NCBI GenBank assembly: GCA_017465155.1
Contig: JAFTWV010000014.1
Coordinates: 1 to 64,000, forward strand
Direction of reading: 5' to 3'
Length of the DNA stretch: 64,000 nucleotides
Source of the DNA: Clostridia bacterium
Lineage (GTDB): Bacteria; Bacillota; Clostridia; Christensenellales; Aristaeellaceae
Both the position numbers and the translations under genes were made by a program. Of the stretch, positions 19,016 to 21,520 are shown piece after piece; within the stretch, counting starts at the first letter, position 1, and the number at the start of each line of letters is the position of its first letter. The notes beneath the pieces were generated by a model. The model saw only the letters and a program-made list of their open reading frames with translations, was not told the DNA's origin and made no database searches.

Positions 19016-19954
19016 TTACTTCTTGATCTGAGCCAGCGCGTTGTTCACGGCTTCGATCAGAGCGTTGGAGGTCACGGTCGCGCCGGAGTGGACGTCAACA
19101 GTGGTGGAGTTGGCAGCGATGATCGCGTCAGTCACGGGCTTGATGGCCGCGTCGCCGATGCCGGCGGTCTCGCCGTGGGACAGCACTTCGATCTTGGCAA
19201 TCTTGTTGCCGTCCATGGTGACCTTGACCTTTACTTCGCCGCCGAAGCCCTTGCCCACGCCGATGTACTCGTTCGCAGCCAGCTCAGGCTCAGCCGCGGG
19301 CTCCTCAACCACGGGAGCAGCCTCATAGCCGAAGTGGATGTTCAGCAGGGTGATGGTCTTCTCGGCCACGTCGGCAGACAGGCAGGCGCAGCGGGTTGCG
19401 CGCTCAGGGGTGCCGAACTCATAGCCGCTTGCGGCCATCCAGTTGCCGACGGAATCCTTGCACAGCTCGGAGCCGGAAACGGAATGAACGGGATGCTCGG
19501 GCTTGTCAGCAGGCTGATAGAGCGGGAAAGCAGTGGTCTCGTACCAGCTGTACAGCTCATTGCGCAGCTTGCCGGAGTCAGAGCCGGTCAGGAAGCATCC
19601 CAGGATTGCGAAAGCGCCGCCCAGAGAGCCGCACAGGTTACGACGGCCGTAACCGCCGCCGCCGTTGGCGAACATGCGGCCGTTGATCTGGTTGTAGGGG
19701 TAGCCGTACTTCTCTGCCATCAGCTCCAGAATGCCGGAGGCAACAGCAGCGCAGCAGCCGCCGTGGGTGGAGAAGTTGGCGTACACGCGCGCCTTGACTT
19801 CTTCCTTGTCCAGGGGCTGGTAGGTCCAGGGCCACGCGGGCGCTTCGATCTCAGCGGCATGGGCGGTGGTGACAGCGGGAACGGTCGCGATGGCGGCTGC
19901 GCCAAGGATACCCTTGCCAGCCAGGCTCAGAAATTCGCGGCGGGTCTTGTTCAT
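19016..19954 (-). CDS. Tat-exported C_GCAxxG_C_C / FMN-binding protein
   Basis: 312-residue exported redox protein. It opens with a twin-arginine signal (RREFLSLAGKG then a hydrophobic stretch ending TAHA). Next, about residues 50-130, is a C_GCAxxG_C_C-type domain with GGCCAAVASG and a GGGGYGRRNLCGSLGGAF stretch; more cysteines follow (CKDS, CACLS). The last 85 residues are an FMN_bind domain with DVHSGATVTS, which fits the D-x2-[ST]-G-A-T flavinylation motif used by ApbE to attach FMN to Thr. No CxxCH heme motif is present. Start chosen at 19954 because AGGAGG precedes it. It is divergent from the Tat genes, its likely exporter. Electron partners are unknown. Confidence 0.85.
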   Translation of the reverse strand: MNKTRREFLSLAGKGILGAAAIATVPAVTTAHAAEIEAPAWPWTYQPLDKEEVKARVYANFSTHGGCCAAVASGILELMAEKYGYPYNQINGRMFANGGGGYGRRNLCGSLGGAFAILGCFLTGSDSGKLRNELYSWYETTAFPLYQPADKPEHPVHSVSGSELCKDSVGNWMAASGYEFGTPERATRCACLSADVAEKTITLLNIHFGYEAAPVVEEPAAEPELAANEYIGVGKGFGGEVKVKVTMDGNKIAKIEVLSHGETAGIGDAAIKPVTDAIIAANSTTVDVHSGATVTSNALIEAVNNALAQIKK

Positions 19955-20051
19955 GGTGGATCTCCTCCTGATGATATCATTGTGTCGTCGGTAGGCGAAA
20001 CACGTGCAGAAAGCTATTTCTGCATCGGTATTTCGCATGTATGGTATCTAT

Positions 20052-20081
20052 ATTATACAGCATCAATGGTGGGTTAGACAA
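20052..20081 (-). promoter_or_regulatory. promoter of the Tat-signal protein gene
   Basis: TTGTCT (20081-20076) and TATAAT (20057-20052) on the minus strand with an 18-base spacer. The leader to the start at 19954 is about 90 bases. Confidence 0.7.
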
Positions 20082-20114
20082 GACAAACTGCTCAATCAGG
20101 CAGAAAAGTGGTGA

Positions 20115-20143
20115 TTTACTTTTGGCTATGAATGATGTATAAT
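20115..20143 (+). promoter_or_regulatory. promoter of the tat operon
   Basis: TTTACT (20115-20120), 17-base spacer, TATAAT (20138-20143). It is back-to-back with the client promoter, only 33 bases apart. Confidence 0.8.
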
Positions 20144-20209
20144 ATATCCCACGAAAAAGTGTGAAGCCGGTCGATAGATGCATCGCCCGGTGCAGGGAGG
20201 CGAATGGGT

Positions 20210-20572
20210 ATGTTCAACATCGGCATGATGGAGCTGATCCTGGTGCTGCTGGTGGCGTTTCTGGTCGTTGGCCCGAAGGATCTGCCGAAGGTTGCCCGGT
20301 GGGTGGCCCGGCAGATCAAGAGCATCCGCAGGCTGGTCCGCGAGGTGAAAAAGGAGACTGGCTGGGACGAGTTTACTGCTGAATTCCGCGATACGAAGGA
20401 GGACTTGAAAAGGACCTTTGAGGAAGCGGATGTGTCCGGTGACGTCAGGGATGCAGCGGATGAGATCAGCAAGGCAGCCTGCGAGGTGAAGCAGAGCGTT
20501 GACAGCGTCCGAAAGGACGTGGACGGCGCAGCAAAGGAGCTTCGCGGGGAGATCGGCAATACATCAATTTGA
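20210..20572 (+). CDS. tatB: TatA/TatB-family translocase protein, long form
   Basis: 120-residue Tat component. One N-terminal membrane helix (IGMMELILVLLVAFLVVGP) contains the early Glu typical of TatB, then the hinge GPKDLPKVAR and an amphipathic helix, followed by a long charged coiled-coil-like tail. The length and the GPxxLP hinge favour a TatB-like role (substrate receptor with TatC), with the short TatA next to it; the symbol is by resemblance. Two ATGs are possible (20204, 20210); the second has better spacing from GGGAGG. First gene of the operon. Confidence 0.8.
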   Translation: MFNIGMMELILVLLVAFLVVGPKDLPKVARWVARQIKSIRRLVREVKKETGWDEFTAEFRDTKEDLKRTFEEADVSGDVRDAADEISKAACEVKQSVDSVRKDVDGAAKELRGEIGNTSI

Positions 20573-20587
20573 AGGAGGACTTGAACA

Positions 20588-20764
20588 ATGGGCAGACTGG
20601 GCATAACGGAGATTATTCTGATTCTGGTGCTTGCGCTGGTACTCTTTGGCGGCGGCAAGCTGGCAGGCGTGGGCAAGGCGCTTGGCCAGAGTATCCGTGA
20701 TTTCAAGAAAGAACTCAAATCGGACGAACCCGCTGAGAAAAAGGAAGAGGGCAAGGCCGAGTAA
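20588..20764 (+). CDS. tatA: TatA, short form
   Basis: 58-residue TatA, the pore or membrane-thinning subunit of the twin-arginine translocase. It reads MGRLGITEIILILVLALVLF followed by GGGKLAGVGKALGQSIRDFK, which is the family pattern of a short helix, FG-type hinge and amphipathic helix with a charged tail. GGAGG lies 10 bases before the ATG. It starts 15 bases after the TatB-like gene and is followed 30 bases later by tatC. Length is normal for TatA of Gram-positive bacteria. Confidence 0.92.
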   Translation: MGRLGITEIILILVLALVLFGGGKLAGVGKALGQSIRDFKKELKSDEPAEKKEEGKAE

Positions 20765-20794
20765 TCCATCGGCCCCGCGATAAGGGGGAATAGT

Positions 20795-21520
20795 ATGGAT
20801 CAGCCGAATGAAAAGCAGTCGATCCTGGAGCATCTGGCAGCGCTGCGGAAGATACTGCTGGTCAGTGCGGGCGCAGTTCTTGCCGCGTTCGTGGTCATCT
20901 TCTATGCGTTCATCGACCCGCTGATGGGGCTGATCACCCAGCCCATCGTGGAGCGGGGGATTGAGATCATTTACACAGCCATGTCCGAGGCGCTCATGAC
21001 CAAGCTGAAGGTTGCGCTGGTAGCGGCGGTGGTGGTTGCGAGTCCGGTGATCTTCTGGCAGCTGTGGGGATTTATCAAGCCGGCGTTGTATCCTAATGAG
21101 AAGCGGGCTGTGCGGCTCATTTTCTTTGTGGCAGTATTCCTGTTTCTACTGGGCGTGATGTTCTGCTACTTTGCGGTGTACATGCTGGCGGTGGATTTCT
21201 TCCTGATTTCAGGCGAAAACCTTGCCGTACCGATGCTGTCCATCGATAAATATGTGGGCTTCCTCTTTGGCTTCGTGCTGCCCTTTGGACTGGCCTTTGA
21301 GCTGCCCGTAGCGCTGTATATCACCACCAGGCTGGGGATGACGAATTATGAGATGCTGGCAGGCAAGCGTAAATTTGTCATTCTGGCAGTGGCGGTGATC
21401 GCTGCGGTGCTGACGCCGCCGGACGTGGTTTCGCAGGTGATGCTGGGTATCCCGATTCTCCTGCTGTTTGAGGTCGGTCTGCTGGTTGTGAAGCACGTTA
21501 GGCCGAAGCAGGCGGAATAA
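20795..21520 (+). CDS. tatC: Sec-independent protein translocase TatC
   Basis: 241-residue TatC, the receptor for twin-arginine signals. The N-terminal SILEHLAALRKILL carries the conserved Glu-His-Leu and Leu-Arg motif, six membrane helices follow, and the segment FWQLWGFIKPALYPNEKRAV in the first cytoplasmic loop and FGLAFELPVAL are family marks. Last gene of the three-gene tat operon; a terminator lies at 21665. All parts needed for a working Tat system are therefore present together. Confidence 0.93.
   Translation: MDQPNEKQSILEHLAALRKILLVSAGAVLAAFVVIFYAFIDPLMGLITQPIVERGIEIIYTAMSEALMTKLKVALVAAVVVASPVIFWQLWGFIKPALYPNEKRAVRLIFFVAVFLFLLGVMFCYFAVYMLAVDFFLISGENLAVPMLSIDKYVGFLFGFVLPFGLAFELPVALYITTRLGMTNYEMLAGKRKFVILAVAVIAAVLTPPDVVSQVMLGIPILLLFEVGLLVVKHVRPKQAE

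Follow-up and report, generated by a model that had tools for sequence, protein, structure and literature searches.

Tat–client loci and the locus studied

Genes of the twin-arginine translocation (Tat) system are known in some bacteria to be located beside the gene of a client protein, one such client being PhoD of Bacillus subtilis, which is a phosphatase. An arrangement of this kind was analyzed in the genome of a Clostridia bacterium (GCA_017465155.1), in a 64,000-nucleotide stretch of contig JAFTWV010000014.1 (positions 1 to 64,000), hereafter the window, which contains the operon tatB-tatA-tatC and a divergent gene for a protein with a Tat signal, hereafter the client. Tat operons beside their clients have been described, for example, in Listeria, where tatAC is located near the client operon fepCAB and both are under the control of Fur (PMC4481299); FepB of Staphylococcus is a named Tat-signal client (PMC7139808); and at the TatAdCd-PhoD locus of B. 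subtilis, for which phoD and ywbN are named, the client gene is located at the tat locus, as here (PMC3827258). In Listeria and Staphylococcus, the client is a Dyp-type or iron-dependent peroxidase and only TatA and TatC are present, and tat operons of Bacilli lack tatB (PMC3827258), whereas the operon in the window includes tatB, and its client is related to split-Soret cytochrome c but haem-free.

Two groups of described proteins resemble the client. It differs from the split-Soret cytochrome c of Desulfovibrio desulfuricans (PDB 1h21; NF047622) in its score with the equivalog profile NF047622, 118.5 bits against a cut-off of 400 bits, in the absence of the haem motif CxxCH, and in the FMN_bind domain replacing the haem tail. 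Compared with FMN_bind proteins flavinylated by ApbE (PMC8238504; domain 1 of CbFMN4, PDB 8p2b), it adds a split-Soret-like core and a predicted Tat route. A term count over PMC8238504 and PMC11334425 (main text) gave no occurrences of GCAxxG, PF09719, split-Soret, twin-arginine or Tat, and no description of the client fusion or of the client–Tat pairing was found in the titles, openings of abstracts and text passages inspected, in a literature collection that lacks most subscription journals.

Analysis of the locus and of related genomes suggests that tatB-tatA-tatC is probably maintained chiefly for the export of this one adjacent protein, a predicted carrier with an iron–sulfur (Fe–S) centre and flavin mononucleotide (FMN), the probability of this reading being about 0.64.

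Client protein and Tat operon

The N-terminus of the client is MNKTRREFLSLAGKGILGAAA, in which TRREFL fits an S/T-R-R-x-F-L-K-like pattern and is followed by a hydrophobic stretch; its score with TIGR01409 is one bit below the cut-off of 16.7 bits (Table 1). A second Tat-signal model, A2, was built from 26 signals of this lineage, the signal of the window being one row. The client matches the Pfam profiles C_GCAxxG_C_C (PF09719; 41.1 bits, cut-off 27) and FMN_bind (PF04205; 69 bits, cut-off 22). It contains seven cysteines, in agreement with its description as Cys-rich in the earlier note, and Cys67, Cys108, Cys165 and Cys189 are invariant in all 119 aligned close homologues, as well as in all 60 rows of a wider alignment. 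The core is similar to that of split-Soret cytochrome c in sequence and fold; in the fold search, the rows past the first were occupied by the FMN domain, which makes the absence of other families from it uninformative. No CxxCH motif was found in the 120 homologues among the matches listed, and the seven haem-type relatives contain two such motifs each. The client has no CxxCH and is therefore a split-Soret relative, not a cytochrome.

Thr293, the predicted site of FMN attachment, is invariant in all 119 close homologues, and DVHSGAT fits exactly the flavinylation motif D-x-x-[S/T]-G-A-[S/T] (PMC12052999). This strict motif is present in 43 of the 120 homologues listed and in 14 of the 35 named FMN-fused clients, and the relaxed motif D-x-x-x-G-A-[S/T] in 106 and 26 of them, respectively.

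All three Tat components score above the curated NCBIfam cut-offs, TatB by a margin of just 0.9 bit. For TatB, the second ATG (20210), about 10 bases past GGGAGG, has better spacing from the ribosome binding site than the first in-frame ATG (20204); the gap between the client gene and tatB is 255 bases from the former and 249 from the latter. The profiles and coordinates bear out the earlier note as regards tatB-tatA-tatC divergent from a gene with a Tat signal, and its gap of 255 bases is correct with the start at the second ATG.

Table 1. Features of the client–Tat locus in the window and genes for GGDEF proteins next to clients of relatives
Feature	Position	Strand	Remarks
Client: Tat signal, haem-free split-Soret-like core and FMN_bind	19016..19954	-	312 amino acids (aa); start ATG at 19954
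Tat signal peptide	19856..19954	-	RR = residues 5-6, RREFL; TIGR01409 15.7 bits; A2 46.6 bits
Split-Soret-like core, predicted Fe–S site	19310..19852	-	Cys67, Cys108, Cys165, Cys189; no CxxCH
FMN_bind domain	19019..19258	-	DVHSGAT, residues 287-293; Thr293 = predicted FMN site
Client promoter-like site, TTGTCT-18-TATAAT	20052..20081	-	promoter scan, 10/12 matches
tatBAC promoter-like site, TTTACTTTTGG...TATAAT	20115..20143	+	promoter scan, 10/12 matches; conserved in linked relatives
tatB	20210..20572	+	TIGR01410 57.4 bits, cut-off 56.5, scored from 20204
tatA	20588..20764	+	58 aa; TIGR01411 55.4 bits, cut-off 53.9
tatC	20795..21520	+	241 aa; TIGR00945 190.1 bits, cut-off 132.7
GGDEF (diguanylate cyclase) gene, G008	L112:2658-4976
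GGDEF (diguanylate cyclase) gene, G012	L113:2875-5280
GGDEF (diguanylate cyclase) gene, G003	L114:4835-7156

Tat signals and TatC in the source genome and its relatives

The source assembly comprises 2.80 Mb in 136 contigs with a completeness of 68.5%, the window being part of contig C98, and was compared with 99 relatives (100 genomes in the set). The TatC profile matched 28 genomes, and 26 of these contain a full TatC; the matches not counted as full are a fragment of 77 positions in G013 and a partial gene with an internal stop in G030. Among the 40 genomes of other families of the same order (G060–G099), TatC was found in one, in line with the earlier statement that Tat is rare in Clostridia. 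Tat operons of Clostridia are mostly of the AC type, with seven tatB genes in 29 species (Table 1 of PMC3827258).

In the source genome, TatC was found once. The search with TIGR01409 at an expectation value (E) of up to 10 gave one match, the client, and the search with A2 gave the client and one more match with an E of 1.57, starting from model position 14, past the twin arginines. The absence of any other clear Tat signal, noted earlier for the window, holds and extends to the whole assembled source genome, which contains one recognizable signal and one Tat locus.

With a threshold E of up to 0.01, A2 signals were found in all 26 genomes with full TatC and in two of the other 74 (G056 and G084); this agreement is partly built in, because 16 of the TatC genomes supplied the rows of A2; the other ten and G056 gave no row, yet match the model. 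The signal of G084 (E 0.006, on a 23-aa frame) is probably a chance match. The 90%-complete draft G056 contains 14 A2 signals, mostly in frames of about 600–700 aa, and TatC was not found there, for which an assembly gap or foreign contigs are candidate explanations. Among the 26 TatC genomes, one A2 signal is present in 15, two in eight, four in G002 and G019, and eight in G041. Additional TIGR01409 hits over the cut-off, missed by A2, were found one each in G003 (at a contig end), G025 and G049; this profile carries background, because it is also over the cut-off in the TatC-poor genomes G011, G013, G018 and G024, besides G056, mostly in short frames. In the six genomes that are at least 90% complete and have a single A2 signal (G006, G012, G014, G032, G036, G051), the signal belongs to the client family in five and to an FMN_bind fragment at a contig end in G014.

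Strong matches to the client core (E below 1e-40; the weak matches of the two distant genomes G091 and G092, with E of 1e-4 to 6e-4, were excluded) were found in 19 of the 100 genomes, including the source, and full TatC is present in all 19; none was found in the 74 genomes without full TatC. Fisher tests of client versus TatC gave 5e-15 overall, 7e-4 within the genus and 3e-5 for the family outside it, values that treat the related genomes as independent. Within the genus, both client and full TatC are absent from G004, G005, G011, G013 (with its TatC fragment) and G015. The client gene and tatC are located within 3 kb on one contig in nine of the 18 client-bearing relatives (G001, G006, G009, G010, G016, G017, G025, G032, G036).

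Proposed function and alternative explanations

According to the proposed mechanism, the core would take up an Fe–S centre via the four invariant cysteines in the cytosol, before export; the folded precursor would be bound by the TatBC receptor and moved across the membrane by TatA; and exported lipoprotein ApbE would then attach covalent FMN to Thr293. The product would be a two-cofactor carrier of the envelope, with the FMN domain at the place of the two haem motifs of haem-type split-Soret proteins, and would transfer electrons between a donor in the membrane and an acceptor outside. The gene apbE is present in the source genome (contig C4) and encodes a protein with a lipoprotein-type N-terminus. 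In the stretch G000:C4:1-4358 (L264), this apbE lies together with the genes of rubrerythrin, a NusG_II-domain protein and a membrane protein that matches FMN_bind four times.

Need for Tat on account of the flavin, as supposed in the earlier note, is in agreement with the exact motif in the window and the invariant Thr293, but is scarcely credible and was rejected. ApbE modifies secreted targets and adds FMN to them outside the cytosol (PMC12052999). FMN_bind gave 17 matches in the source genome, counted as 12 genes; of the 11 genes other than the client, three (C30, C33, C121) run off the stretch, and the eight with readable N-termini, including a 636-aa protein similar to flavin adenine dinucleotide (FAD)/FMN reductases, are all of Sec, lipoprotein or membrane type by eye. 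Of the 14 loci of core-only relatives from Clostridia, 12 (L190–L201) retain the twin-arginine (RR) signal, the other two being L202 and L207, the latter cut by a contig end. The RR signal is likewise present in all nine of the 35 named FMN-fused clients in which the flavinylation motif departs from the rule. A flavin domain alone thus does not require Tat, and comparison of these proteins points to the four-cysteine core as the likely reason for it.

A general-purpose redox Tat system, serving whatever cofactor proteins the lineage holds, with the split-Soret client as the commonest cargo, appears rather unlikely, although part of the data fits it. The other Tat-signal proteins in relatives (20 proteins scanned) are mostly redox proteins, namely, 4Fe-4S ferredoxin-like, FAD_binding_2 with or without FMN_bind, and ODP-flavodoxin-rubredoxin types; CarboxypepD_reg, MR_MLE, lactamase-fold and SH3 proteins are also among them. 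A 4Fe-4S ferredoxin-like protein of about 210 aa is encoded divergently from tatB in G002 and G049, an FAD_binding_2+FMN_bind protein of about 680 aa 1.1 kb past tatC in G023, and ODP-flavodoxin-rubredoxin proteins of about 505 aa and CarboxypepD_reg proteins of about 515 aa also have Tat signals; G041 has eight such signals, and G002 and G019 have four each. Against this explanation, the single A2 signal of 15 TatC genomes belongs to the client family in 11 of them, and within the 100 genomes the client has no strong match wherever full TatC is absent.

It is very unlikely that the client is an envelope redox or signal sensor reporting to a membrane partner rather than an electron carrier. 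Genes of GGDEF proteins of about 770–800 aa are located 49–135 bases downstream of the client on the same strand in G003, G008 and G012, and one of these proteins has a weak match to dCache_1 (21.4 bits, cut-off 45), but such a neighbour was found in these three genomes only and not beside the client of the window. A dedicated membrane electron partner was also sought beside the unlinked clients; in the same three genomes, the neighbour is the GGDEF protein and not a donor.

Maintenance of the operon chiefly for the client remains the preferred explanation, and the following observations weigh against it. Full TatC without the client is present in seven of the 26 genomes (G014, G023, G026, G027, G028, G049, G085), which use other Tat proteins, mostly redox ones. 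Linkage was not seen in nine of the 18 client-bearing relatives (G002, G003, G007, G008, G012, G019, G041, G045, G051); in G041 the separation is real, because a single contig carries both genes, at a distance of about 514 kb, and this genome has eight Tat signals. With A2 and TIGR01409 combined, a single signal is found in 14 of the 26 TatC genomes and two or more in 12. Further clients may be missing from the source genome because its assembly is only 68.5% complete. A core-only protein from Christensenellaceae (L202:7953-8579) has no export signal in the called frame and is possibly a cytosolic member of the family, judging from its sequence; RK, RT or RN replaces RR in four of the seven haem-type relatives (L203, L208, L210, L211), so that Tat may be dispensable for the core in some cases. 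The Fe–S centre of the client is predicted from homology, and the crystal 1h21 is reported to lack this centre. Nine of the 35 named FMN-fused clients depart even from the relaxed flavinylation motif while retaining the core and the RR signal.

The claim of the earlier note that the Tat system exists for this client stands as regards the sole signal, the single locus and the co-occurrence in 19 of 19 genomes. Dedication is a tendency, not a rule, because of the nine unlinked relatives and the 12 genomes with two or more signals; the system appears narrow, but not always private.

Flavinylation of the nine motif-departing clients (L167, L168, L175, L179, L181, L184, L186, L188, L205), with variants such as ANAT, GST, SSAT and ANVT, is doubtful. 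Enzymes of the ODP-flavodoxin-rubredoxin type are usually cytosolic; flavodiiron-like proteins of this type with Tat signals were observed in G002 and G027 (L124:3683-5212 and L127:3095-4609).

Gene layouts and evolution of the family

TatC is encoded on the stretch compared in 21 of the 57 named loci, several of which are from the same genomes, and six gene layouts were found: divergent (L157–L160, L163, L164, L166, L186, L188), convergent (L170, L171), client followed by tatBAC (L172), one or more clients followed by tatA-tatC (L173, L175, L177, L181, L184, L205), tatBAC followed by a core-only client (L194, L195), and genes 4.4 kb apart on the same strand (L168). In the tatA-tatC layout, TatC is 29–36% identical to that of the window and the client core 41–54% identical, which hints at separate client–Tat pairings. 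Oscillospiraceae clients (L173, L174, L175, L177, L181, L184, L205) have an RR signal followed by a lipobox-like cysteine (e.g., ...LGTSMIGC) and are possible Tat lipoproteins. Where the contig permits, a tatA-tatC pair without tatB is located downstream of these clients.

The glutamate of HLxELR in TatC (Glu15 of E. coli) is replaced by alanine in the window, while the equivalent of Glu103 is retained; compared with textbook TatABC, the Glu15/Glu103 pair is incomplete, and membership by profile is unaffected. In E. coli, Glu15 cross-links the leader peptide and its replacement by alanine impairs TatC (PMC3827258). Alanine occupies this position in 24 of the 26 genomes with full TatC, including the source, and glutamate in G032 and G085, as well as in six TatAC-type TatC proteins of Oscillospiraceae loci.

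In the tree of 60 cores, the seven haem forms make up one group (99/92), and support for the branch uniting the 51 Clostridia rows is low (80/57); the tree is midpoint-rooted, long branches meet in it, and one core-only row (L189) ends at a contig end. No direction of cofactor change is claimed, given this weak branch, the root and the long branches. As regards cytochrome c maturation, Cytochrom_C_asm was found in only one (G008) of the 15 client genomes covered, out of 19 client genomes in all. It is tentatively proposed, as a possibility somewhat short of even, that the haem-free flavo-split-Soret family is a private Tat cargo in gut Clostridia, in which the same Fe–S core is combined with a haem tail, with a domain for covalent flavin or with neither, depending on the lineage; the core would have been re-joined several times to Tat operons of the TatBAC and TatAC types, in six gene layouts, client and translocase would have been retained or lost as a pair, and the signal pocket of TatC would have changed (Glu15 to Ala) upon specialization to few signals.

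A Tat system with a single natural client would make it easy to examine why certain proteins must be exported folded, because changes in the four cysteines or in the flavin site would tell the two cofactors apart. The family also provides natural variants of one core, with haem motifs, with a flavin domain or with neither of these, and may help to explain how electrons are moved outside the membrane by bacteria that lack cytochrome c maturation.

Promoters and neighbouring genes

The promoter scan of the intergenic stretch gave five sites versus 2.3 ± 1.6 in shuffles, and by itself is therefore weak. Element TTTACTTTT...TATAAT precedes tatB in the window, in all nine named divergent loci and in G041, and an opposing client-side site with at least 9/12 matches is present in all eight divergent regions of sufficient length, so that conservation applies to both promoters. 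The relaxed TTTACTTTT pattern also matched twice away from tat (L086:2661, L132:145). The stricter TTTACTTTTGG...TATAAT has six exact matches in 19 genomes, five of them upstream of tatB, and occurs once in the window with none expected; it is nearly tat-specific. The tat promoter element was not seen at the client promoters read in five unlinked genomes, and no shared operator was revealed when the intergenic regions of the divergent loci were compared with the corresponding upstream sequences from unlinked genomes. Of the back-to-back promoters under joint control suggested earlier, the sites are present and conserved, but joint control is unproven.

The outer neighbours of the module are a GH5 cellulase-type gene on one side and a gene of an ATP-binding cassette (ABC) transporter permease on the other. 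The leaders of the client genes in four unlinked genomes (L112, L113, L114, L115) contain an apparent short hairpin before the ribosome binding site, identified by eye, the sequence of which varies among them, e.g., GGGAC...GTCCC and GGGAG...CTCCC.
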